DNA of 64,000 nucleotides from Platerodrilus igneus. Its lineage: Eukaryota; Arthropoda; Insecta; Coleoptera; Lycidae. Positions 16,706 to 60,942 of the stretch are shown here, piece by piece. A program made the position numbers and the translations under genes. How positions within the stretch are numbered: position 1 is the first letter of the stretch; each line of letters opens with the position of its first letter. The notes under the pieces were generated by a model. It saw nothing but the letters and a program-made list of their open reading frames with translations, was not told the DNA's origin and made no database searches. The stretch spans positions 248,001 through 312,000 of the forward strand of contig JARFIW010001364.1 in the NCBI GenBank assembly GCA_036346225.1. The letters are read 5' to 3'.

Positions 16706-21347
<4,642 letters not shown>

Positions 21348-46305: not shown

Positions 46306-46365
46306 GTTGGTTAAGGGTTGCTATCGCTTTTGGTTAATTTCAAGAAAAAATATTTTTTTTAATTA

Positions 46366-46715
46366 AGGTTTATTTCGCTATTTGTATCATTAATTTTGAT
46401 TTGGATTTATTAATTTTCCGTTTAGGTTGGGTAATTTCAAATTTTGTAAAAATAAAATTTGATTTTGCTATTTGTAACGTTAATTTTGGTTTGGATTTAT
46501 TAATTATCCGTTTAGGTTTGGTAATTTCAAATTTTGTAAAAATTAAGGTTGTTGTTTCTATTTGTAGCGTTAATTTTGGTTTGGATTTATTAATTTTCTT
46601 TTTAGATTGGGTAAATTCAAATTTTGTAAAAATTGGGATTAATTTTGCTATTTTTATCGTTATTTTAGGTTTGGATATATCAATTTTCAGTTTAGACTGC
46701 GTCGGGTTATTTTTA
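46366..46715. repeat. Four tandem 90-bp units in the gypsy-C leader
   Basis: The same element (TTTGTATCATTAATTTTG, TTGGATTTATTAATTTTC, TCAAATTTTGTAAAAAT) starts at 46381, 46471, 46561 and 46651, an exact 90-bp period. It lies between the gag start and a primer-binding-like GACGCAGTC (minus strand, about 46695). The plus-strand frame through it is a consequence of the multiple-of-three period. Confidence 0.9.
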
Positions 46716-46756: not shown

Positions 46757-47574
46757 GTAATGAATCTGTGGGATTTATACTCGATAATGTTGATTTAATT
46801 ACTGTAGCCTTGAATTTGCCTTTGGCTCTATGGTTCCCTTTTGTACAAAGGTAACAAATACCCTTGAATTTTAAAACATCACGTTTTTTTTCTAAAGCGA
46901 TGTCTGCCATACAAAATTCTGTTTTATGGTCTTGCTTGCAGAATAAACAAGCTTCAGTGGTTTTATTAGGAGTAACCAATAGACTAGACGCCGATCCTCT
47001 ACCTGGATTTATTGTCCCTGCATTTGTTATCTTATCGTTTTTGTCTGCATCCGGCTTTAGAGCTTGTTCTAAAGACTATATTTCGTTTTTGACAAACTGC
47101 AATATATCTTTCACTTGTTTGTCTACGTTATCTTCTCTTTTAACAGACTCAGACATGGCATTTATTGAAGTTTCTTGTGACGTATCTAGTTTGGCGCCGC
47201 CATAGTCTGCTACTTTCCTATTGTTTTGGCAAAAATACGCCAATCGCATTTCATGAGGCAACGAGTTCATTAAACTAGACTTCACAATCATGTTATACTG
47301 CGTGCTCGCTACTTCCAGAATAGTAAGTGCACGCACAGTCGACGTAATACGATTGTAATTCTTGCGTAAAGTGTTCACGTCAGTCTTCGATTTTACCGCT
47401 TCAATTTTCATGATGATTTCAAAATATTGCTCTATTAGCCGGTCAGAATTCCCGAATTGATCTTTAAGTACCTTCAGTGCTTCTTCATAGAATGCTCCTG
47501 ATGGCGGAAAGCCTTCGATTGCTTCTGGTACTTTACCGGTCACAGACACTCGTAAATAATTAAATCGATCGCCC
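46757..47574 (-). pseudogene. BEL-A gag, downstream part
   Basis: The frame 47076-47549 contains FPPSGAFYEEALKVLKDQFG, the DUF1759-type gag signature of BEL. 46731-46979 contains CLFCKQDHKTEFC and CYLCTKGNH, the paired zinc-binding motifs; the second lacks its last Cys. A stop near 47.07 kb separates them. The frame continues at 58447 on the far side of the palindromic element, interrupted exactly at the TTTGTT duplication. Confidence 0.85.
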
Positions 47575-47580
47575 TTTGTT
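47575..47580. repeat. Left TSD of the palindromic element (TTTGTT)
   Basis: Exact match to 58442-58447. Six-base duplications are characteristic of Polinton/Maverick integration. Confidence 0.88.
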
Positions 47581-49199
47581 AGTAGAGGGTTGACAGGGTT
47601 TCTGCCGCATCATTTCCTCCAGCATCCCCATTTCCTCACACATTTACATGTAAATTCCCATAAGGAGAAAATGAGGAGGGATCCCTCATTTCCTCACATC
47701 TGGACCAAATAGTTTTCTTCGACTAACTATTTTTCATCTTTTGAGATAAATATATCTTGCATATTTATCTTAGCATCCTCATTTGCCCCCACATCTGAAC
47801 CAAATAGCTTTCTTCGACTAACCATTTTTCATCTTTTGAGATAAACCTATCTTGTTTGGTGTCAATTAATATTAGATTTTTTCAGCTACCCGAATCTCTA
47901 GGAATTTTTTAGATTGCATCCCCCAGGGAGCTACCCTAATTGTAAGATTTTCTGCAGGCAGCGATTTTTGCTCATCCCCATAAATTTCTTAGACATACGA
48001 CTCATCAAACTAACCTAGAATTTTACGCAGAATTTGAATCTGCAAACAAATTTAAAATCGGTCCACCCCCTGCAGAGTTACACCTTTAAAGTCCTGAACC
48101 TCTAAATTTTGCTCTTTGCTCCCACATCTGAATGAAAACGTTTTCTTCGGCTAGCCATCGCAGCTTTCGAAATAACCCTATCTTGTTTGGTATCAATTAA
48201 TATTAGATTTTTTTCAGCTACTTGAATCCCTAGGAATTTCTTAGATTGCATCATCCCACGGGGAACAATTTTATGGTCGTCCTTATAAATTTTTCAGTCA
48301 TGCAATACATCAAATTAGTCTAGAATTTTATGCATAATCCGAATCTGTAAACAGATTTAAAATCCGACTACCCCCTACAAAGTTACACTTTTAAAAATCT
48401 CAAAACTCTAAATTTTTGCATGCTTTAAACAACCATTTCCTGAGAAATCTAAAACTGCGGGGATTTTAGAAATGAGTTTTTTATAAGCCATAAGTGTTTA
48501 ATATTTAAAACCAATTTCAAACAGTAATGTACTGTTTAAGAATATTCAAAACGCGGCTTTTAAAATTTTAAACAGTTATTAATTTCTGCTTCAACATTTT
48601 CCTAAATAAGAAAATCACAAATAATTATATGCTCAAACTAAATATGTATTTTTGAAATACATTTCGTTTCCGAACTAATTGCTTTACAATTATGTGACGT
48701 AAAAGTGAAAGTAGCGTAGACCTATCTCTTTATTATTGACTATATGTTTGAGAAATATAATGCATTAGGCAATTCCATATAATTGCTGGGGATTCACACA
48801 ATGTACTTTTTAGTACGTCATTGACTAGGGAAATACGAACTTCATTTTGTAATATAGATCGATTAACGGTTAATTATTTCAAACCGTATATAACGAGGTC
48901 TGAATAGTAAAGCCTATTAGTTCCGCACGCTTTGCGTAACTTAATCGAAATTTTAAACAAATCCTTTCGTATAGTTATTTTTCCTCAAAATCTTTTTAAA
49001 AAATTTAAGTAAGTACATTTTTTTTATTAAAATAGAACACCAATTATTGTGTATTTTGCTATTGTTTCCGATTGTATTTTTAAAACAATTTTTTCAAGGT
49101 AAGGCGCTGTTTTACATATATATTATTTTCAAATTTTAAGGATAGGCTTTTAGCTAAGATAAATAAAAAAATAATTCCCCACAAATATTTTATTAAAAA

Positions 49200-49622
49200 T
49201 TAAATACATTTTACATCAACAAAAGGCTGTAACATTAAAACATTCTCTTTGGAACAGCTTAAGTTATTCAAACAATGGTTTAAGTAGTGATTGTATCTAT
49301 CACCGAATTTTCTTAATTCTTTGAGCCTTGGAAATGAGAATACACTTTCCATGTTTAAAATGTTGTTTGATAAATATTTCGATAGTAACTGCTTCTTCTG
49401 TTGTCCTTTAACATAGACAGTAGCCCCAGGAGGTATGACTTTTTTCAGTAAATCATCCACGTTTGTATATCCACTCGTAGACTGTTCATCCCAGCAAAGT
49501 CCATGGATTCTTTTCTTTAACCACCAAACTTGCTTTTTGAAATCATCACTTAGGGTGTTATACCACACCACCATGTTCAGTATCTTATGCCATATTACAT
49601 TATTTGTTACATCTACATACAT
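49200..49622 (-). CDS. ORF B2, left arm (unknown protein)
   Basis: 140 codons. Conserved-looking features: NVIWHKILNMVVWYN, WWLKKRIHGLCWD, VYVKGQQKKQLLSKYL and a C-terminal HCLNNLSCSKENVLMLQ. This spacing (HGLxW, then YVKGxxKK, then an H/C-rich end with NVxxL) resembles, from memory, a group of uncharacterised proteins found in insect DNA-virus-like and Polinton-like insertions; that is a weak, unverified link. Two further copies lie in the right arm. It starts at the ATG that overlaps the stop of B1 in the sequence ACATGTATGTAG. Confidence 0.6.
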   Translation of the reverse strand: MYVDVTNNVIWHKILNMVVWYNTLSDDFKKQVWWLKKRIHGLCWDEQSTSGYTNVDDLLKKVIPPGATVYVKGQQKKQLLSKYLSNNILNMESVFSFPRLKELRKFGDRYNHYLNHCLNNLSCSKENVLMLQPFVDVKCI

Positions 49623-49847
49623 GTATTGATAACATCTATAAACCTCTGTGGTAACCAGAGTCTGGTGAATCGGGGAATGGCCAAATCTCTAAACATTTGC
49701 GCAAACGATTGCCTTGCACTCGCATCTTTTAAGTATTGGATGGGGTAACATTTAATAGTTTTCAACACTGTCAAGTAATTTAAATTGCTGCAATCATTAG
49801 ACAGAGAAATTCTGGCACGGATCTCTTCCTCTACAAACGTTTAAACC
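49623..49847 (-). CDS. ORF B1, left arm (unknown protein)
   Basis: An open segment of about 70 codons without its own convincing start, reading RISLSNDCSNLNYLTVL, IKCYPIQYLKDASA, FAQMFRDLAIPRFTRL and INTCM before TAG. It follows ORF A in the -1 frame and precedes B2 in the next -1 frame. The same arrangement occurs in all three copies. In the second right-arm copy an ATG at 55752 makes it an 86-codon frame. Confidence 0.45.
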
Positions 49848-50431
49848 CTTTCTTCCTCCGTCGTATTTCCACATACTTTTTTATATCACCTACAAATTTT
49901 TCGTAAAATTCTCGAAAGTTTCCATACCTCAACTCAGCCATTTTAAAACAGATTAATTCTCGCAAATTTAATAGCTTGATGCACTCGTACGCAGGTAGCA
50001 CAATAACATTCCGATCTTTCGTAATTTCCATATTATATAAATTCTCATTTTTCAAAATTGTTCAAGAGCCATATACTTTTATTAAAGGATGTGCTCAGCT
50101 GCAATTTGAAATTTTGACCCAATTGTATGTCAACAACGTCGTCTCCAATAGTCAAACCATTTAATCCGATTTGTTTTGAGTCTTGAGCAAATTGGTGAAT
50201 TTGAAATTTCACTTGAAAAGTACACAAGTTCTTCCAATCGAAGTATGAGAATGTTATCGTAGAATCTGCACACATACCACTACAGCAAATAACTCGGATG
50301 GCAGGTTGAAGACCACCATATAAATCAAAATCAACTTCTATTATATGGTGGTGAGAATTTGGTGGAAATTCGCCTAACCTATAGGTTGTCTTACCAACTA
50401 GTTGGTTGATATTTAATTGTGGTACTCGCAC
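49831..50431 (-). pseudogene. ORF A, left arm, broken by 1-nt insertion
   Basis: Same protein as the intact right-arm ORF A (54530-55129). At about 50053 the left copy has GAAAAATGAG where the right has GAAAAAGAG; the extra T creates a stop after LLNNFEK. The remaining part (49831-50055) resumes with ENLYNMEITKDRNVIVLPAY. Apart from this the two copies differ by only a few residues. Confidence 0.8.
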
Positions 50432-51395
50432 ATCACTTGCAACGTCAACAGAAGAAAAAATCTATCTTTAACTTGTAATTTTAATCAAACTCGACAATAC
50501 TTTGATGACTAATGCACTGGTACAAGACTCCCCCGCCTTTTTGCCGATGGTCGAGCGTGTGCAGCTCCTTATTACGTTAATTGGCGTTAGCAAGTCTTGA
50601 CTGGAAAAGTGACGCGTATATTTGTTTTGTAGTGGGTTTTACCTGTATGTATTTAACCACCAACACCATTTTTAGAATTATTATACAAAATTACTCTTAG
50701 CAGTATTTTTAATATAACTCCGTCGTGTAACCTATCAAATTAGTATAGAATTTTCCTGGGGAATCGAACTTAATTATCACGTCTTTTAAAATTAGCTCCA
50801 ACAAGGACCTGCATAGTGTTTTAATATTCAATAACCTAACAGCAAAGCACCTCTACATTTTTATCTAGATTTAACTCGATAATACAGCAATTTAAAAAAA
50901 AATATTTATACAATATTTTATAGTTATTATTATTTCTATGCACTCGTCTGCGCGGGCGAGTCTATTTAATTAGAGAGAAGCCCGCATTTACTTTAAATAA
51001 AAAATATTCTACGTCATACGTTTCACCAATATGGAATTTCAAGAATGTAAGTGACGCGCGTAATTAAATGCGATATTAAACCAAGTAATTAGATTACTAG
51101 AAATGCACCCTACTTTCTGTTTGAGGAAATTCAGTACAAATTGGAGTAACAATTAAATCATAGATGTCTGTCTATTTCCGAGGCGATGTTTAAATTTTAA
51201 ACCATAGTTTTTTGGAGAAATTTCTGTCACAATATTCCTGCATATTACAGTTTATTCTCTTATACGTTTCTAAATTGTTGTACTCCAACTACAGATATAG
51301 ATCGAATTATGTTAAACTCGATCGGTTTTATATTCACTGGCTACAATATTATTACTTTAGTTTATCTCGGATATTGAACCGTAAAGCATTGTAAC

Positions 51396-51785
51396 TTGAA
51401 AATGATTTCTAGACAAACGTATACCAAGGAATGTTTGCAAGAAGCTCTTAATGAGGTTAAACGAGGTGTTGCAACAATGTACTCTGCTAGTAAGAAGTTT
51501 AGGATTCCAAAGTCGACATTGCGCGACCATCTTATACGATCGCAGAGTAAAAGAGATAAAAGTGTAGACAGTTACATCTCTGATATACAAACAACTAATT
51601 TACAAACTGCGGAAATGTGCACAGGAAGTACTCTAAAATGTGCAGCAACACCTACCTACTCAGATGGTAAAGATGATAAAGAAGTTTGTAAGAGAAGTTG
51701 TAAGATGCAAAAACAAAAGTTTAATATTGAGAAAATGAACTCTGCAATGGAATGCCTGAGGATCTGGATGATTTTATGGAAATAA
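51396..51785 (+). pseudogene. Truncated psq1 copy at the left-arm/loop junction
   Basis: Begins exactly like psq1 of the right arm (MKMISRQTYTKECLQEA) and contains the whole HTH-psq domain (YTKECLQEALNEVKRGVATM through IPKSTLRDHLIRS). After KMNS the homology stops at 51744 and the frame ends at 51785. Beyond the junction another frame reads PEDLDDFMEIIEEIGFIKLL, like the C-terminus of a different protein. The break marks where the palindrome arm ends. Confidence 0.8.
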
Positions 51786-52330
51786 TCGAGGAGATAGGGT
51801 TTATAAAACTGTTGGCAGATATTCAAATGGAATATATACTAAATTGTAAGTTTTTAAGTAAAAATTTAACCACCTCAAGTATTATCATAACAAATGAATG
51901 ATGTGAATTTAGAATTTATTTTTGTATATATTAACTTCTTTATGTTATAAAATATAAAGTACACATTGGTATTGTTTAATTTTTCAAATGTTCACGCAAC
52001 TGAAATGGGTATCTAAGTTCTTATGAAAAGAATTATAACAAAGAGCGCTACATTTAATTTTAATAGAAATGAGTACAACTGCGTGTTTGAAACATACCTT
52101 TTAGTTTAAAATTTTTTTGTTCAACCTCGATGATATTACATAAACCAAGATTCTGCTACTGCTTCCGAGTAACGGAAGTCATGTATTTTTATTGTATCCT
52201 AACAATACCATTATATATAAATAAAACCAAAACGTTTGAAACCATATTTATATTTCAATTCAAATACTTAACAAGTACACTACACATAGAAATATATTTT
52301 TATTCATTAAAACTAATACAGACACAAAAT

Positions 52331-52761
52331 TCACTTTTTTCTCCTTTTAATTGGCAAATGTGTAGTATACATATCCAAATTTTGTATACGATTTTCGTTT
52401 GATCTGAGTTTCGTATAGAGTGTAGCTTTTGGAACATTGTAGATTTCGGAAGCTTCTGAACCAGTAATCCATCCTTTGTTTATTTCGTCAAGGGCTTTAT
52501 TTAAATCCTCTTTAGTATACGATTTAAGTTGTCTCTTTCTTTTTCTGTCAAAAACGTCTGACTTGAAATCTATGTTCTGATCTTTCGCATCAAGATTATC
52601 ATGTGTAGGTTTATCTTGCACTATTTTAGTATTTGCAGGAGATTCATTAGATATACCATTCAAATGTTGGCTAGTTGAACTGTTTGATAAACTTTTTCAT
52701 ATCCTTGACAACTTCTTCTAAAATTTTCATAGCATCTACAGATATAATTTTTTCTCCGGTC
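52331..52761 (-). pseudogene. psq2: second Pipsqueak-type HTH gene, one frameshift
   Basis: Upstream ATG at 52761 starts MTGEKIISVDAMKILEEVV; after about 30 codons a 1-nt shift leads into a frame of 110 codons. It ends with an HTH-psq domain: SYTKEDLNKALDEINKGW, GSEASEIYNVPKATLYTKLR, then a basic tail IKRRKK. HTH-psq domains bind DNA (Pipsqueak, transposase-related proteins). It is distinct from psq1, sharing only the domain pattern. It lies in the loop, so it occurs once. Confidence 0.75.
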
Positions 52762-52869
52762 ATTTATATTACCATGTTTACTTATCAAAATGCAGATGCA
52801 GACTATTCCAATTTTACAATTTTGAAAAATATGTATAAATATTTACCCCCATCTAACTTTGTTGTCGTT

Positions 52870-53562
52870 CTATTCTATAATTCCTTTTTGTCGAAGTTTA
52901 GATATTATAGAGATAATTTTATTTAGGTTATGCATATCTCGATAGTTGTTATAATCAACAGTAACTAGCAGCTGCAGTCTTTCAATCAACCCATGTACAT
53001 TAAAGTGAATATATGCATCATCTGAACTGTGCCCAGTACGATGTGTATTTTTTAATACAACATCCCTTTTTATATACATCGGTATTTTAGTGCCCCGACT
53101 ATTGCTTTCCTGTGTTGAATTCTCATCTTTAGAATTTGGGGTGTAATCCATAGAACTTGATTCATTTATTATTTGCTCTGATGGTTTATGACGAGCATTT
53201 CCATTATTTTTTACAGAGTTCATTTTCTCAAAATTAAACTTTTGTTTTTGCATCTTACAACTTCTTTTACAAACTTCTTTATCATCTTTACCATCTGAGT
53301 AGGTAGGTGTTGCTGCACATCTTAGAGTACTTCCTGTGCACATTTCCGCAGTTTGTAAATTAGTTGTTTGTATATCAGAGATGTAACTGTCTACACTTTT
53401 ATCTCTTTTACTCTGCGATCGTATAAGATGGTCGCGCAATGTCGACTTTGGGAACCTAAACTTCTTACTAGCAGAGTACATTGTTGCAACACCTCGTTTA
53501 ACCTCATTAGGAGCTTCTTGCAAACATTCCTTAGTATACGTTTGTCTAGAAATCATTTTCAA
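52870..53562 (-). CDS. psq1: Pipsqueak-type HTH protein, intact
   Basis: 230 codons. N-terminal HTH-psq domain at residues about 7-50 (YTKECLQEAPNEVKRGVATM; FPKSTLRDHLIRSQSKRDK). A Ser/Thr/Lys-rich linker with two Cys (CTGSTLRCAA; CKRSCKMQKQK) follows, then a C-terminal domain (DAYIHFNVHGLIERLQLLV, MHNLNKIISIISKLRQKGIIE) of unknown fold. Likely nuclear and DNA-binding, perhaps binding the element's own ends; that role is inference. The first 349 bp lie in the right arm, the rest in the loop. About 970 bp separate its start from the divergent ORF A. Confidence 0.75.
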   Translation of the reverse strand: MKMISRQTYTKECLQEAPNEVKRGVATMYSASKKFRFPKSTLRDHLIRSQSKRDKSVDSYISDIQTTNLQTAEMCTGSTLRCAATPTYSDGKDDKEVCKRSCKMQKQKFNFEKMNSVKNNGNARHKPSEQIINESSSMDYTPNSKDENSTQESNSRGTKIPMYIKRDVVLKNTHRTGHSSDDAYIHFNVHGLIERLQLLVTVDYNNYRDMHNLNKIISIISKLRQKGIIE

Positions 53563-54529
53563 GTTACAATGCTTTACGGTTCAATATCCGAGATAAACTA
53601 AAGTAATAATATTGTAGCCAGTGAATATAAAACCGATCGAGTTTAACATAATTCGATCTATATCTGTAGTTGGAGTACAACAATTTAGAAATGTATAAGA
53701 GGATAAACTGTAATATGCACTAATATAGTGACAGAAATTTCTCCAAAAAACTATGGTTTAAAATTTAAACATCGCCTCGGAAATCGACAGACATCTATGA
53801 TTTGATTATTACCCCAATTTGTACTGAGTTTCCTCAAACAGAAAGTAGGGTGCATTTCTAGTAATCTATTTACTTGGTTCAAGATCGCTTTTAATTACGC
53901 GCGTCACTTACATTCTTGAAATTCCATATTGGTGAAACGTATGACGTAGAATATTTTTTATTTAAAGTAAATGCGGGCTTCTCTCTAATTAAATAGACTT
54001 GCCCGCGCAGACGAGTGCATAGAAATAATAATAACTATAAAATATTGTATAAATATTTTTTTTTAAATTGCTGCATTATCGAGTTAAATCTAGATAAAAA
54101 TGTAGAGGTGCTTTGCTGTTAGGTTTTTGAATATTAAAACACTATGCAGGTCCTTGTTGCAGCTAATTTTAAAAGACGTGATAATTAAGTTCGATTCCCC
54201 AGGAAAATTCTATACTAATTTGATAGGTTACACGACGGAGTTATATTAAAAATACTGCTAAGAGTAATTTTGTATAATAATTCTAAAAATGGTGTTGGTG
54301 GTTAAATACATACAGGTAAAACCCACTATAAAACAAATATGCGCGTCACTTTTCCAGTCAAGACTTGCATATAACGACAATTAACATAATAAGGAGCTGC
54401 ACACGCTCGACCATCGGCAAAAAGGCGGGGGAGTCTTGTACCAGTGCATTAGTCATCAAAATATTGTCGAGTTTGATTAAAATTACAAGTTAAAGATAGA
54501 TTTTTTCTTCTGTTGACGTTGCAAGTGAT

Positions 54530-55129
54530 GTGCGAGTACCACAATTAAATATCAACCAACTAGTTGGTAAGACAACCTATAGGTTAGGCGAATTTCCACC
54601 AAATTCTCACCACCATATAATAGAAATTGATTTTGATTTATATGGTGGTCTTCAACCTGCCATCCAAGTTATTTGCTGTAGTGGTATGTGTGCAGATTCT
54701 ACGATAACATTTTCATACTTCGATTGGAAGAAATTGTGTACTTTTCAAGCAGAATTTCAAATTCACCAATTTGCTGAAGACTCAAAACAAATCGGATTAA
54801 ATGGTTTGACTATTGGAGACGACGTTGTTGACATACAATTGGGTCAAAATTTCAAATTGCAGCTGAGCAAATCCTTTAATAAAAGTATATGGCTGTTGAA
54901 CAATTTTGAAAAAGAGAATTTATATAATATGGAAATTACGAAAGATCGGAATGTTATTGTGCTACCTGCGTACGAGTGCATCAAGCTATTAAATTTGCGA
55001 GAATTAATCTGTTTTAAAATGGCTGAGTTGAGCTGTGGAAACTTTCGAGAATTTTATAAAAAATTTGTAGGTGATATAAAAAAGTATGTGGAAATACGAC
55101 GGATGAAGAAAGGGTTTAAACGTTATTAG
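54530..55129 (+). CDS. ORF A, right arm (unknown protein, 199 aa)
   Basis: Intact. Starts MRVPQLNINQLVGKTTYRLG; contains HHHIIEIDFDLYGGLQPAIQ, a Cys pair in CCSGMCADS, DDVVDIQLGQNF, and a C-terminal half NVIVLPAYECIKLLNLREL followed by a basic, helix-like end (KKYVEIRRMKKGFKRY). No signal peptide or membrane segment. I recognise no family. It is divergent from psq1 and followed directly by B1 in the -1 frame. A possible TATA-like TATAAAAC at about 54329 may serve it. Confidence 0.65.
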   Translation: MRVPQLNINQLVGKTTYRLGEFPPNSHHHIIEIDFDLYGGLQPAIQVICCSGMCADSTITFSYFDWKKLCTFQAEFQIHQFAEDSKQIGLNGLTIGDDVVDIQLGQNFKLQLSKSFNKSIWLLNNFEKENLYNMEITKDRNVIVLPAYECIKLLNLRELICFKMAELSCGNFREFYKKFVGDIKKYVEIRRMKKGFKRY

Positions 55130-55130
55130 A

Positions 55131-55751
55131 GGAAGAGAGCCGTGCCAGTATTTCTCTGTCTGATGATTGCAGCAATTTAAATTACTTGACAGTGTTGGAA
55201 ATTTTTAAATGTTACCCCATCCAGTACTTAAAAGATGCGAGTGCAAAGCAATCGTTTGCGCAAATGTTTAGAGATTTGGCCATTTCCCGATTTACCAGAC
55301 TCTGATTACCAAAGCGGTTTATAGATGTTATCAATACATGTATGTAGATGTAGCGAATAATGTAATATGGCATGAAATACTGAACATGGTGGTGTGGTAT
55401 AACACCCTAAGTGATGATTTCAAAAAGCACGTTCGGTGGTTAAAGAAAAGAATCCATGGACTCTGCTGGGATAAACAGTCTACGAGTGGATATACAAATG
55501 TGGGTGATTTACTGAAAAAAGTCTTACCTCCTGGGGCTACTGTCTATGTTAAAGGAGAACAGAAGAAGCAGTTACTATCGAAATATTTATCAAACAACAT
55601 TTTAAACATGGAAAGTGTATTCTCACTTCCAAGGCTCAAAGAATTAAGAAAATTCGGTGATAGATACAATTACTGCTTAAACCATTGTTTGAACAACTTA
55701 AGCTGTTCCAAAGAGAAGGTTTTAACGTTACAGCCTTTTGTTAATGTATAA
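55131..55751 (+). CDS. B1 (with one stop) and B2, right-arm copy 1
   Basis: B1 frame (about 55131-55345) carries one TGA in the FTRL region. B2 (55338-55751, 137 codons) is intact: HVRWLKKRIHGLCWD, VYVKGEQKKQLLSKYL, and NHCLNNLSCSKEKVL near the end. As in the left arm, the B2 ATG overlaps the B1 stop in ACATGTATGTAG. Confidence 0.6.
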
Positions 55752-56414
55752 ATGTATTTGTGTACAGAGGAAGAAAGGGTTCAAGCGTTATTAGAGGAAG
55801 AGAGCGGTGCCAGTATTTCTCTGTCTAATGATTGCAGCAATTTAAATTACTTGACAGTGTTAAAAATTATTAAATGTTACCCCATCCAGTACTTAAAACA
55901 TGCGAGTGCAAGGCAATCGCTTGCGCAAATGTTTAAAGATTTGGCGATTTCCCGATTCACCAGACTCTTGTTACCACAGCGGTTTATAGATGCTATTAAT
56001 ACATGTATGTAGATGTAGCAAATAATGTAATATGGCATGAGATACTGAACATGGTGGTGTGGTATAACACCCTAAGTAATAATTTCAAAAAGCAAGTTCG
56101 GTGGTTAAAGAAAAGAATCCATGGACTCTGCTGGGATGAACAGTCTACGAGTGGATATACAAATGTGGGTGATTTACTGAAAAAAGTCATACCACCTGGT
56201 GCTACTGTCTATGTTAAAGGAGAGCAGAAAAAGCAATTACTATCGAAATATTTATCAAACAACATTTAAACATGGAAAGTGTATTCTCACTTCAAAGTTC
56301 AAAGAATTAAGAAAATTCGGTGATAGACACAATCACTGTTTAAACCATTGTTTGAATAACTTAAGCTGTTCTAAAGAGAATGTTTTAATGTTGCAGCCTT
56401 TTCTTAATGTATAA
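55752..56414 (+). pseudogene. B1 and B2, right-arm copy 2 (tandem duplicate)
   Basis: A 665-bp tandem duplication of the preceding B1-B2 segment. B1 is open for 86 codons from 55752. B2 starts at 56003, but one T is lost from AACATTTTAAACATGG near 56267, so it stops at 56269 and continues in another frame to 56414. This copy is missing from the left arm. Confidence 0.7.
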
Positions 56415-57290
56415 ATGTATTTAATTTTTAATAAAATATTTGTGGGAAATTGTTTTTTTATTTATCTTAGCTAAAAACCTATCTTTAAAATTTGAAAAAA
56501 ATATATATGTAAAACAGCGCATTACTTTGAAAAAATTAATGTTTTAAAAATACAATCAGAAACAATAGCAAAATACACAATAATTGGTGTTTGCAAATAA
56601 ATTCAGTTCTATTTTAATAAGAAAATGTAGACTTACCTTAAATGTTTTAAAAAGATTTTGAGGAAAAATAACTATACGAAACGATTTGTTTAAAATTTCG
56701 TTTAACTTACACAAAGCGTGCGGAACTAATAGGCTTTACTATTTAGACCTTATTATATACGGTTTGAAATAATTAACCGGTAATCGATCTATATTACCAA
56801 ATTAAGTTCGCAGTTCCCTAGTCAAGGACGTACTAGAAAGTACATTGTGTGAATCCCCAGCAATTATATGGGAATTGCCTAATGCACGACATTGAAATAT
56901 ATTTCTCAAACATATAGTCATTAATAAAGAGAAAGGTCTACGCTACTTTCACTTCTACGTCACATAATTGTAAAGCAATTAGTTCGGAAACGAAATGTAT
57001 TTTCCAAAGTACATATTTAGCATTGAGCATATAATTATTTGTGATGTACTTATTTAGGAAAATGTTTAACCAGAAATTGATAACTGCTTAAAATTTTAAA
57101 AGCCGCGGTTTTGAATATTCTTAAACAGTACATTATTGTTTGTTTTAAATATTAAACACTTGCGGCTTATAAAAAACTCATTTCTAAAATTCCTGCAGTT
57201 TTAGATTTCTCAGGAAATGGTTGTTTAAAGCATGCAAAAATTTTGAGGTTTGAGACTTTTATAAGTGTAACTTTGTAGGGGGTGGTCGGA

Positions 57291-58260
57291 TTTTAAATCT
57301 GTTTACAGATTCGGATTCTGCATAAAATTCTAGACTTATTTGATGTATTGTATGACTAAACAATTTATAAGGACGATTATAAAATCGCTACCGGTAAAAA
57401 ATCTTAAAGTTGGGGTAGCTCCCTGGGGGATGATGCAATCTAAGAAATTCATAGGGATTCAAATAGTTGAGAAAAATCTAATATTAAATGATACCAAACA
57501 AGATAGGGTTATCTCGAAAGATGCGATGGATAGTCGAAGAAAAGTATTTGGTTCAGATGTGGGAGCAAAGCGTAAAATTTAGAAGTTTAGGACTTTAAAA
57601 GTGTAACTTTGTAGGGGCCTCCAGTTTTAAATCTGTTTGCGGATTCAGATTCTGCATAAAATTCTAGACTGATTTGATGTGTCAGATGGTTAAAAAATTT
57701 ATAAGGACGACCATAAGATTGCTAGCAGCAAAAAATGGTAAACTTGAGGTAGCTCCCTGGGGGATGATGGCATCTGAAAAATTTAAAGAGATTCAGGTAG
57801 CTGAGAAAAATCTAATATTAATTGATACCAAAGAAGATAGGGTTATCTCAAAAGATGCAATGGCTAGCCGAAGAAAACTATTTGGTTCATATGTGGGAAC
57901 AAAGAGCAAAATTTAGAGGAGCAGGACTTTAAAACTGTAACTTTGCAGGGGCTAGACCGATTTTAAATCTGTTTGCAGATTCAAATTCTGCGTAAAATTC
58001 TAGGTTAGTTTGATGTGTCGTACGTCTAAAAAATTTATGCGGATGACCAAAAATCGCTGCCTGCAGAATATCTTAAAATGAGGGTAGCTCCCTGGGGGAT
58101 GATGCAATCTAAAAAATTCCTAGAGATTTGGGTAGCTGAGAAAATTCTAATATTAATTGATACCAAACGAGATAGGTTTATCTCGAAAGATGATACATGG
58201 TTTGTCGAAGAAAACTATTTGGTTCAGATGTGAGGGCAAATGAGGATGCTAAGATGAATA
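57291..58260. repeat. Three tandem units of about 335 bp, right subterminal
   Basis: Anchor sequence GTTTGCAGATTCAAATTCTG and variants starts at 57301, 57635 and 57971. Each unit also has GGTAGCTCCCTGGGGGATGA and GAAGATAGGGTTATCTC-like blocks. Two units keep an 80-codon frame, the third does not. The left arm has only two units, about 305 bp apart (48041 and 48346). Confidence 0.85.
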
Positions 58261-58326
58261 TGCAAGATATATTTATCTCGAAAGATGAAAAATGGTTAGT
58301 CGAAGAAAACTATTTGGTCCAGATGT

Positions 58327-58414
58327 GAGGAAATGAGGGATCCCTACTCATTTCCTCCTTATGGGAATTTACATGTAAATGTGTGAGGAAATGAGGATGC
58401 TGGAGGAAATGAGG
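58327..58414. promoter_or_regulatory. Cluster of four GAGGAAATGAGG motifs at the right tip
   Basis: Exact copies at 58327-58338, 58385-58396 and 58403-58414 and an inverted one at 58347-58358, around a 14-bp palindrome ATTTACATGTAAAT. Degenerate versions lie at the left tip (47611-47696). Such subterminal clusters are typical of transposase or replication-protein binding sites; here the binder is unknown. Confidence 0.6.
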
Positions 58415-58441
58415 TGGAAGAAACCCTGTCAACCCTATACT

Positions 58442-58447
58442 TTTGTT
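58442..58447. repeat. Right TSD of the palindromic element (TTTGTT)
   Basis: Exact copy of 47575-47580. From here the BEL-A gag continues. Confidence 0.88.
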
Positions 58448-58917
58448 AGTAGTAGATTTTCATGTACCATACTTCGAAATTGCTCCCAAAATGGAAGCCA
58501 TTTTTTTGCGGTACCGTCAAATTTAACTAATTGCAAGCACTGAAGCTTCATAGATGCTAATGATGGTAATGTACTTACGTCGTTACTTGGCGGTTGCGTA
58601 ATAATGCCATCAGATTGAACTACTGATTGTGATTGCGCCTTGTCCTCTGCACTTAATCGAAACCTCAACTCCTACTCTGTAGTAACAACAATCTCCTCGT
58701 ATTCATATTGTTTTAGAAGCTCCTCTTCGATATTTCCCTTAAGTAGAAGTTCTACTTGTCTGTCGATTTCTTTCAAGTTATCACCAGCCAATTTTAACTT
58801 TGATAAAGCCGTATAAATATCTTCGGTACTGTAGTCCTTGTTTTCTAACATTACGTTAATATTGTTAACTGCCTTAGTCAACTGCATTCTACAGACCGTC
58901 CGTTTTGCTAGTTCCAT
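58448..58917 (-). pseudogene. BEL-A gag, N-terminal part
   Basis: Starts with MELAKRTVCRMQLTKAVNNI at 58917, a coiled-coil-like BEL gag N-terminus, has one in-frame TAG at about 58670, then runs LQCLQLVKFDGTAKKWLPFW and VHENLLLT to the insertion point. LVKFDGxxxxWxxFWxQF is the BEL gag (DUF1759) hallmark. Only the single stop separates this from an intact N-terminal half. Confidence 0.85.
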
Positions 58918-60392: not shown

Positions 60393-60396
<4 letters not shown>

Positions 60397-60511
60397 AAGT
60401 CCTGCTGTAGCCGTTCTTTTGGTGGTTTTCAATTACTAGTTCGATTTGAAATGGTAATTCAACTTTAAATACAAAGTTGGGTTTTCATTTCATCTTAATA
60501 ACTATTAATAT
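60393..60511 (+). mobile_element. SINE-B copy 1, lacks most of the tRNA head
   Basis: Starts in the T arm of the tRNA-like region (TCAAGTCCTGCTGTAGCCG) and continues with a body shared almost base for base with 60796-60908 (CAATTACTAGTTCGATTTGA, AATACAAAGTTGGGTTTTCA). Only about one difference over 115 bp. The 5' side abuts a (TA)n tract. Confidence 0.8.
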
Positions 60512-60741
60512 ATATTAAGCATTCATTTGCATTCCAAATGTGGATTATTCTTCTCTATTAATAATAATATAATTACATGTTTGTATTATTCCGAACGTTG
60601 CAAAAATAGGATGATCAAGTTATTAGTACATGAATTATGTATATAACTAGATTCAATTTCCTTAAATGCAAGACGTAATTGAAAATCGTTAACAAGAGCC
60701 AAGCTTCAGTAGTATTAAGTATAACATCATCTAAACAATTA

Positions 60742-60904
60742 GGCTAGATAGCTCAATTGGTTAGAGCACTGATCCGGAAAATCAGAGGTTGCAGGTTCAA
60801 GTCCTGCTGTAGCCGTTCTTTTAGTGGTTTTCAATTACTAGTTCGATTTGAAATGGTAATTCAACTTTAAATACAAAGTTGGGTTTTCATTTCATCTTAA
60901 TAAC

Positions 60905-60942
<38 letters not shown>
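60742..60942 (+). mobile_element. SINE-B copy 2, tRNA head, body and (TA)n tail
   Basis: The head (60742-60815) folds as a cloverleaf: GGCTAGA/TGTAGCC acceptor with one mismatch, D arm GCTC/GAGC, anticodon stem CTGAT/ATCAG, T arm GCAGG/CCTGC. A box TAGCTCAATTGG (60749-60760) and B box GGTTCAAGTCC (60794-60804) are present. The anticodon loop CCGGAAA has C at position 33 where real tRNAs have U, so this is a SINE head rather than a working tRNA gene. The body ends in a (TA)n tail (60909-60942). Confidence 0.75.

Follow-up and report, generated by a model that had tools for sequence, protein, structure and literature searches.

A palindromic element with Maverick/Polinton-like ends and no recognisable core genes, inserted in a BEL/Pao Gag gene of the beetle Platerodrilus igneus

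Among replicons with protein-primed replication, the incomplete genomes of adenoviruses are often palindromic, and the invertron plasmids replicate with a terminal protein. For the protein-primed invertron plasmids of fungi, the long inverted repeats of mitochondrial DNA around integrated copies have been ascribed to racquet-shaped or panhandle-shaped intermediates (PMC1864894). The Maverick/Polinton elements, as described from vertebrates, have termini of the form (AGT)2//(ACT)2 and 6-bp target duplications, their inverted repeats measure 46–1,447 bp and intact elements 12.7–24.6 kb, their accessory genes lie in the regions flanking the core, and their end repeats have been interpreted as permitting jumping-back in protein-primed replication (PMC8097293). 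The locus reported here is located in the lycid beetle Platerodrilus igneus, on contig JARFIW010001364.1 of assembly GCA_036346225.1, of which a stretch of 64,000 nucleotides (positions 248,001 to 312,000 of the forward strand; hereafter the window, in which all positions given below are counted) was analysed. It consists of a 10,861-bp element at positions 47581–58441 that forms an imperfect palindrome with arms of 4.2 and 5.2 kb. Similar to the Maverick/Polinton elements, it has a 6-bp duplication, terminal inverted repeats and space for accessory genes outside a core, and its AGT...ACT termini retain the first repeat of the Maverick motif, the second being degenerate; it differs from them in that no core domain is recognised, the inverted repeat spans nearly the entire 10.9 kb and the genes A and B are unmatched. 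Its layout also resembles that of the incomplete adenovirus genomes, in that two inverted copies of one end enclose a single-copy loop and the core genes are apparently lost, although those are free viral genomes and this element is integrated with a target duplication. Another insect repeat that is palindromic over almost its full length is Unknown 6 of the fly Calliphora vicina, an unclassified repeat with 92% identity; however, it is only 488 bp long and no genes are reported in the passages that describe it (PMC3630058).

The left arm of the palindrome (47581–51747, plus strand) starts AGTAGAGGGTTGACAGGG and the right arm (53211–58441, minus strand) finishes CCCTGTCAACCCTATACT. Between them lies a single-copy spacer of 1,463 bp (51748–53210), which contains the gene psq1 and the C-terminal part of the right copy of a second gene, psq2. 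The arm coordinates are based upon the longest 25 of 29 inverted repeats together with an alignment of the two arms, and they confirm the palindrome, its limits and its arm lengths as given in a preliminary description, which had been made from the sequence alone; the AGTA...TACT termini noted there were also observed. The two ends agree over their first four bases (AGTA), differ at one position and then match over 18 bases in a row. The terminal inverted repeats extend over 301 ungapped bp with 94% identity and run on through the arms. The terminal six bases read AGTAGA at the left end and AGTATA (reverse complement) at the right end, so that both ends keep the first AGT intact, with a degenerate second one. 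Towards the centre of the palindrome, psq2 is unbroken only across the border of the right arm and the spacer, and its left copy is truncated where that arm stops.

The junctions of the element record its insertion. Copies of TTTGTT flank both of its ends (47575–47580 and 58442–58447), the right copy being followed by the host sequence AGTAGTAGA. Both junctions share an identical direct repeat of 11 bp (TTTGTTAGTAG), because the host target runs on as AGTAGTAGA (AGTAG) and so resembles the end of the element itself. A duplication of 6 bp keeps the ends in register (AGTAGAGGG and AGTATAGGG), which other lengths do not, yet other duplication lengths are possible; of the exact 6-bp duplication described earlier, the flanking TTTGTT at both ends, in register, therefore holds, whereas its exactness gives way to the 11-bp repeat. 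The target sequence beside the duplication, AGTAGTAGA (within 58442–58456), resembles the element end AGTAGA, and in this single copy the resemblance may be due to chance, to a target preference or to a longer duplication. The interrupted sequence is a BEL/Pao Gag gene on the minus strand. Its downstream part (47079–47549) matches positions 41–140 of the PF03564 (DUF1759) profile (E = 9e-12), and its upstream part (58448–58716) matches positions 1–22 of this profile and ends at the junction (E = 2.5e-4, a value that falls below the curated cut-off because the piece is short). When the flanks are fused with one TTTGTT, a single open frame of 242 codons spans the junction. Due to the split of the DUF1759 domain and the restoration of this frame, the insertion of the element into an older BEL/Pao retrotransposon is real. 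An in-frame stop codon is found upstream of the Gag frame and hence the host retroelement was not pristine; no pair of long terminal repeats for dating was found around the BEL or Gypsy pieces. A further candidate, an ordinary cluster of host genes, was rejected in view of the target duplication and the split Gag gene.

No Polinton core gene had been visible in the preliminary description, and a six-frame Pfam scan of the element, in which stops were written as X, agrees with it. In none of the six frames was a Pfam domain of an integrase, polymerase B, ATPase, protease or capsid detected at E ≤ 0.1; HTH_psq was the only domain, found in two frames (E = 0.053 and E = 0.0011, both below cut-off), and the other four frames were empty. 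In a control by the same method, two of the three minus-strand frames of the neighbouring retroelements (36–46.5 kb) yielded Integrase_H2C2, rve (E = 1.9e-6, below cut-off), RVT_1, RNase H and Peptidase_A17. The target duplication, the interrupted Gag gene and the lack of any core domain in six frames support the view that this is a mobile element without recognisable core genes.

Relatives of the element were also sought in protein, structure and genome collections. In a set of 5.8 billion proteins, A, B2 and psq2 had no match at E ≤ 1. Viral contigs contained no relative of A, B2, psq1 or psq2 in a scan that requires exact 8-residue words and can miss distant relatives, nor one recognised by the element's end pattern, and the phage proteins contained no relative of A or B2. 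Six proteins (A, B2, B1, psq1 and psq2 among them) were queried against PHROGs and NCBIfam, each of which returned one weak match taken as chance (psq1 at E = 0.089 in PHROGs; B2 at E = 0.015, far below cut-off, in NCBIfam). Among solved structures (PDB), A had no match at E ≤ 5, B2 had one at E = 1.7 and psq2 had none at E ≤ 1. The AlphaFold single-sequence models of A and B2 were too poor to use, with a mean predicted local distance difference test score (pLDDT) of 33.1 and 38.7, respectively. For these two proteins, whose comparison with viral proteins by profile and structure had been proposed earlier, the searches thus gave no credible match, viral or other. The 17-base end pattern was present in 21 records of the genome contigs, all of them with bacterial or archaeal titles; since by our own estimate chance alone would give about 30 matches in 257 billion bases when both strands are counted, all 21 were set aside. 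As these collections are mainly prokaryotic and viral, with few animal genomes, absence from them says little about relatives in animal genomes. Open-licence full texts, searched by phrase, contained no description of a nonautonomous, palindromic or defective Polinton/Maverick; the phrases for palindromic transposons retrieved only unrelated matter, and for broader topics there was none among the matches listed.

From this anatomy we infer, with about an even chance of being right, that the locus is a non-autonomous palindromic mobile element which arose from one end of a Maverick/Polinton-like element. Read inward from one terminus, the progenitor would have had a terminal repeat containing 334-bp tandem units, followed by B, A and psq2, with psq1 deeper inside. 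During strand-displacement replication, the growing strand would have folded back within psq2 and served as its own template as far as the same end, and the product would contain the same end twice, a central loop and mirrored accessory genes, with the core genes absent. As the recognised terminus would be present at both ends, a full-length relative could act as a helper, its polymerase and integrase replicating and inserting this element in trans. The element would have entered the BEL/Pao Gag gene and produced a short target duplication there, and its genes would have drifted after the insertion. A polymerase folding back on its own strand near one end of the element would give the layout that is seen, and a piece derived from an end and containing only accessory genes also fits, because the accessory genes of vertebrate Mavericks flank the core modules. 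Only three features suggest the relationship to Polintons, namely the ends, the length of the duplication and the arrangement of the inverted repeats, and membership in this group is not claimed because its core genes were sought and not found. The HTH-psq domain has been described as a derivative of the pogo transposase (PMC10027918) and therefore psq domains alone are no mark of a Maverick. The earlier suggestion of a non-autonomous Polinton relative, or a derivative of an unknown virus or transposon, is partly supported, in so far as this is a mobile element without recognisable core genes; no relative of A, B2 or the psq proteins that would point to a Polinton or to an unknown virus was found in collections with few animal genomes.

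A number of observations weigh against this derivation. The second end repeat is degenerate at both termini, the identical junction repeat of 11 bp means that the duplication is not uniquely 6 bp, and no sequence overlap that would mark a template switch is present at the inner junction. Searches of the libraries with A, B2, psq1 and psq2 gave no match to a Maverick protein, and no relative with core genes was seen in the collections searched. The six-frame scan is also less sensitive than a search with a single frame (psq1 has E = 1.5e-5 as a single frame versus 0.0011 in the scan) and hence a very decayed core gene could escape it. Lastly, the arm identity is uneven, at 97.6% in the inner part versus 94.2% in the outer part (Fisher p = 5.8e-5), and this weighs against a single fold-back because the divergence after one event should be even along the arms in the absence of later gene conversion or selection. 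Under a fold-back origin, the identity gradient must come from later conversion near the centre, or else the palindrome arose in place.

The divergence between the arms increases outward. The identity is 97.6% over the 1,700 bp from A to psq2, 95.4% over 692 bp of the B region, 94.2% over 747 bp of the outer single-copy part and 93.7% over the terminal 301 bp, and single 200-column blocks in the tandem-repeat part drop to 90%. In addition to gaps of 8–31 bases, the arms show two large differences, both of which are extra sequence in the right arm, viz. one 334-bp unit and one 664-bp cassette of B1 and B2. The 334-bp units form three tandem direct repeats in the outer right arm (57258–58263, plus strand), with two matching units in the outer left arm (47740–48395, minus strand). 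Units inside one arm are 75–84% alike, whereas the matching pairs across the arms are 90% and 93% alike, and hence the tandem array predates the duplication of the arms. An array older than the arm split is expected on the derivation from a Maverick-like end, because a finished end would have been duplicated. Similar open frames of 80 amino acids, which differ in their frame within the array, are present in two successive units (57340–57582 and 57674–57916). The three B cassettes are about equidistant from each other (right copies 1 and 2, 93.1%; right copy 1 and left copy, 94.3%; right copy 2 and left copy, 93.3%; shared-change counts of 18, 26 and 20), which indicates that the cassette duplication and the arm split are similar in age. 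As psq2 is unbroken only at the border of the right arm and the spacer, the older arrangement may be the one kept on the right side, in which case the left arm would be the copy that was added.

The genes of the element were assessed by comparing their open frames with those of 400 simulated sequences with the composition of positions 51748–58441. The gene psq1 (52331–52663, minus strand) encodes an HTH_psq protein of 110 amino acids from a TTG codon, which matches PF05225 above the cut-off at the single-frame value given above. Its open frame (52334–52696) of 121 codons is within chance, this length being reached in 44 of the 400 simulations, and the first ATG is at codon 109, after the DNA-binding domain. 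The right copy of psq2 (52870–53562, minus strand), 230 amino acids long from a TTG codon, lies in the longest open frame of the element (52873–53580; 236 codons, reached in none of the simulations), and its first ATG is at codon 9. This copy has no HTH_psq match at E ≤ 1 and its name is taken from the left copy (51396–51785, plus strand), which is truncated at the border of its arm with the spacer and matches PF05225 just under the curated cut-off (E = 9e-4). Hence psq2 occurs in both arms, at full length only in the right one, and psq1 lies in the spacer. Of the two different HTH-psq genes described earlier, the difference is retained, as the predicted proteins are different, and psq1 is a sound assignment, whereas that of psq2 is weak. 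Most simply, the psq proteins would be regulators that bind the element's own promoter or ends. Just inside the left arm's border with the spacer, an open frame at 51748–51830 enters the spacer in a frame other than that of psq2 and may be the remnant of another gene.

Protein A has one copy per arm. The right copy (54530–55129, plus strand) is an unmatched protein of 199 amino acids from a GTG codon, within an open frame of 209 codons that was reached in none of the 400 simulations and has its first ATG only at codon 63, and the frame of the left copy (50045–50431, minus strand) is broken by a frameshift after 128 amino acids. The late ATG codons of A and psq1 point to an upstream exon, a non-ATG start or lost starts. 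Since runs of 209 and 236 codons were reached in none of the simulations, A and psq2 are or were genes. The preliminary description had proposed a repeated cassette of A, B1 and B2; this was not borne out, as the tandem repeat of the right arm contains only B1 and B2. The B1-B2 cassettes are located at 55099–55763 (right copy 1, plus strand; B2 at 55338–55751), 55764–56427 (right copy 2, plus strand; B1 at 55752–56012 and a shortened B2 at 56003–56269) and 49199–49866 (the single left copy, minus strand; B2 at 49200–49622). B1 is open in one of the three copies and interrupted by stops in the other two, with dN about equal to dS. B2 is open at full length in two copies and shortened in the third; its 159 codons, the first ATG among them being at codon 23, were reached in four of the 400 simulations. 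The ratio of nonsynonymous to synonymous differences per site (pN/pS) of B2 in frame, taken as a ratio only, is 0.18 between right copies 1 and 2 and 0.25 between the left copy and right copy 2, versus 0.44–1.20 in the other frames. Because the differences of right copy 2 from the other two copies also lean towards synonymous sites, B2 is probably a gene, and its codon changes are a sign of past constraint. When the differences between the arms were summed over A, B2 and psq2 (12 synonymous, 31 nonsynonymous, pN/pS 0.63, p = 0.17), no clear constraint was seen and the out-of-frame controls were similar.

Since only the ends, the duplication and the inverted repeats link this element to Mavericks, it could also be a non-autonomous element of another, perhaps undescribed, superfamily of DNA transposons with 6-bp (or longer) duplications and long inverted repeats, in which AGT ends are due to coincidence or convergence. 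We regard this as a serious but clearly less probable alternative. The lack of matches for A, B2 and psq2 in the protein set is in keeping with it, and if it applies, A, B and the psq regulators mark a system that is undescribed. Very long and variable inverted repeats are also a feature of Foldback-like elements, e.g. Galileo of the P superfamily, with 7–8 bp duplications and a P-type transposase (PMC4168063); however, no transposase domain is recognised in the present element, and a reading of 7 or 8 bp, although it fits within the 11-bp repeat, throws the ends out of register. GingerRoot/IS3EU elements have 6-bp duplications and Ginger2 has 6-bp AT-rich targets, both with retroviral-type integrases, and in these lengths they are similar to the element described here. 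However, no integrase is recognised in this element, and its AGTA..TACT ends differ from those of GingerRoot, which are mostly TA..TA and occasionally TG..CA (PMC10045372), and of Ginger2, which are TGTNR (PMC2836005). In the comparison with these three, Galileo, GingerRoot and Ginger2, AGT...ACT ends are thus found in none. A formation of the palindrome in place, by an ordinary insertion after which host repair (fold-back break-induced synthesis or conversion between the arms) copied one half over the other, would explain why the inner arms are closer than the outer ones, as conversion spreading from the centre gives, and the flanking duplication would survive it. We consider it decidedly unlikely, as the homology spans both arms to the termini, so that repair must have stopped exactly at or within a native terminal repeat, and as a replicative origin with later conversion accounts for the gradient equally well.

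The view that the element is of a new kind, natively palindromic and autonomous, with A or B itself an unrecognised enzyme of mobility or replication, draws on the A and psq2 frames that are beyond chance and the B2 frame that is nearly so, on the sign of constraint on B2, and on the absence of a credible match for A and B2 in Pfam, NCBIfam, PHROGs, PDB and the protein set. It is nevertheless highly improbable in our assessment, since several gene copies are broken and the pooled pN/pS indicates no clear constraint, a polymerase or transposase would be expected to be longer than these proteins, A has its first ATG late in the frame, and the structure models of A and B2 are useless. Palindromic chimeric reads are a known artefact of whole-genome amplification (PMC13265396), and a fold-back chimeric read that mirrored one arm is the remaining explanation. 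This was rejected as scarcely credible, because the arms differ by 2–6% per segment and by the 334-bp unit and the 664-bp cassette, the spacer is single copy and the outer flanks form a coherent empty site. With regard to the derivation from one end of a Maverick-like element, a broader form of it, which is speculative and in our judgement improbable, is that there exists a family of palindromic integrating elements that are satellites of Maverick-like viruses, in which a doubled viral end with accessory genes (psq proteins, A and B) would form a hairpin-prone linear molecule that is replicated by a helper and spreads as an independent lineage. If other copies share the inner junction, the element would be a palindromic satellite of a Maverick. 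If true, it would provide genomic evidence that Maverick strand displacement is able to fold back and a marker for helper-dependent transposition.

The window in which the element lies is AT-rich (33% GC) and contains several retroelements; its BEL/Pao elements and psq domains by themselves suggest animal DNA. These are nested on the minus strand between 36000 and 58917, with the BEL/Pao Gag pieces at 46.7–47.5 and 58.4–58.9 kb. Domains of Pao-type peptidase, reverse transcriptase and integrase are found on this strand at 36–46.5 kb; the Pao peptidase and DUF5641 domains are at about 36–38.5 kb, and a Gypsy-like gag-pol at about 41–46.3 kb lies between the BEL/Pao parts. Adjoining the Gypsy-like gag, a direct repeat of about 284 bp, imperfect at 82%, is present at 46330–46702, where both strands contain open frames. 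Open frames at 18263–20595 resemble exons of an orthologue of ubiquitin-specific protease 7 and probably belong to a resident host gene. Lastly, a 121-bp direct repeat with 99% identity (60395–60515 and 60797–60917) lies beside short repeats that are common to the region at 32.7 kb.

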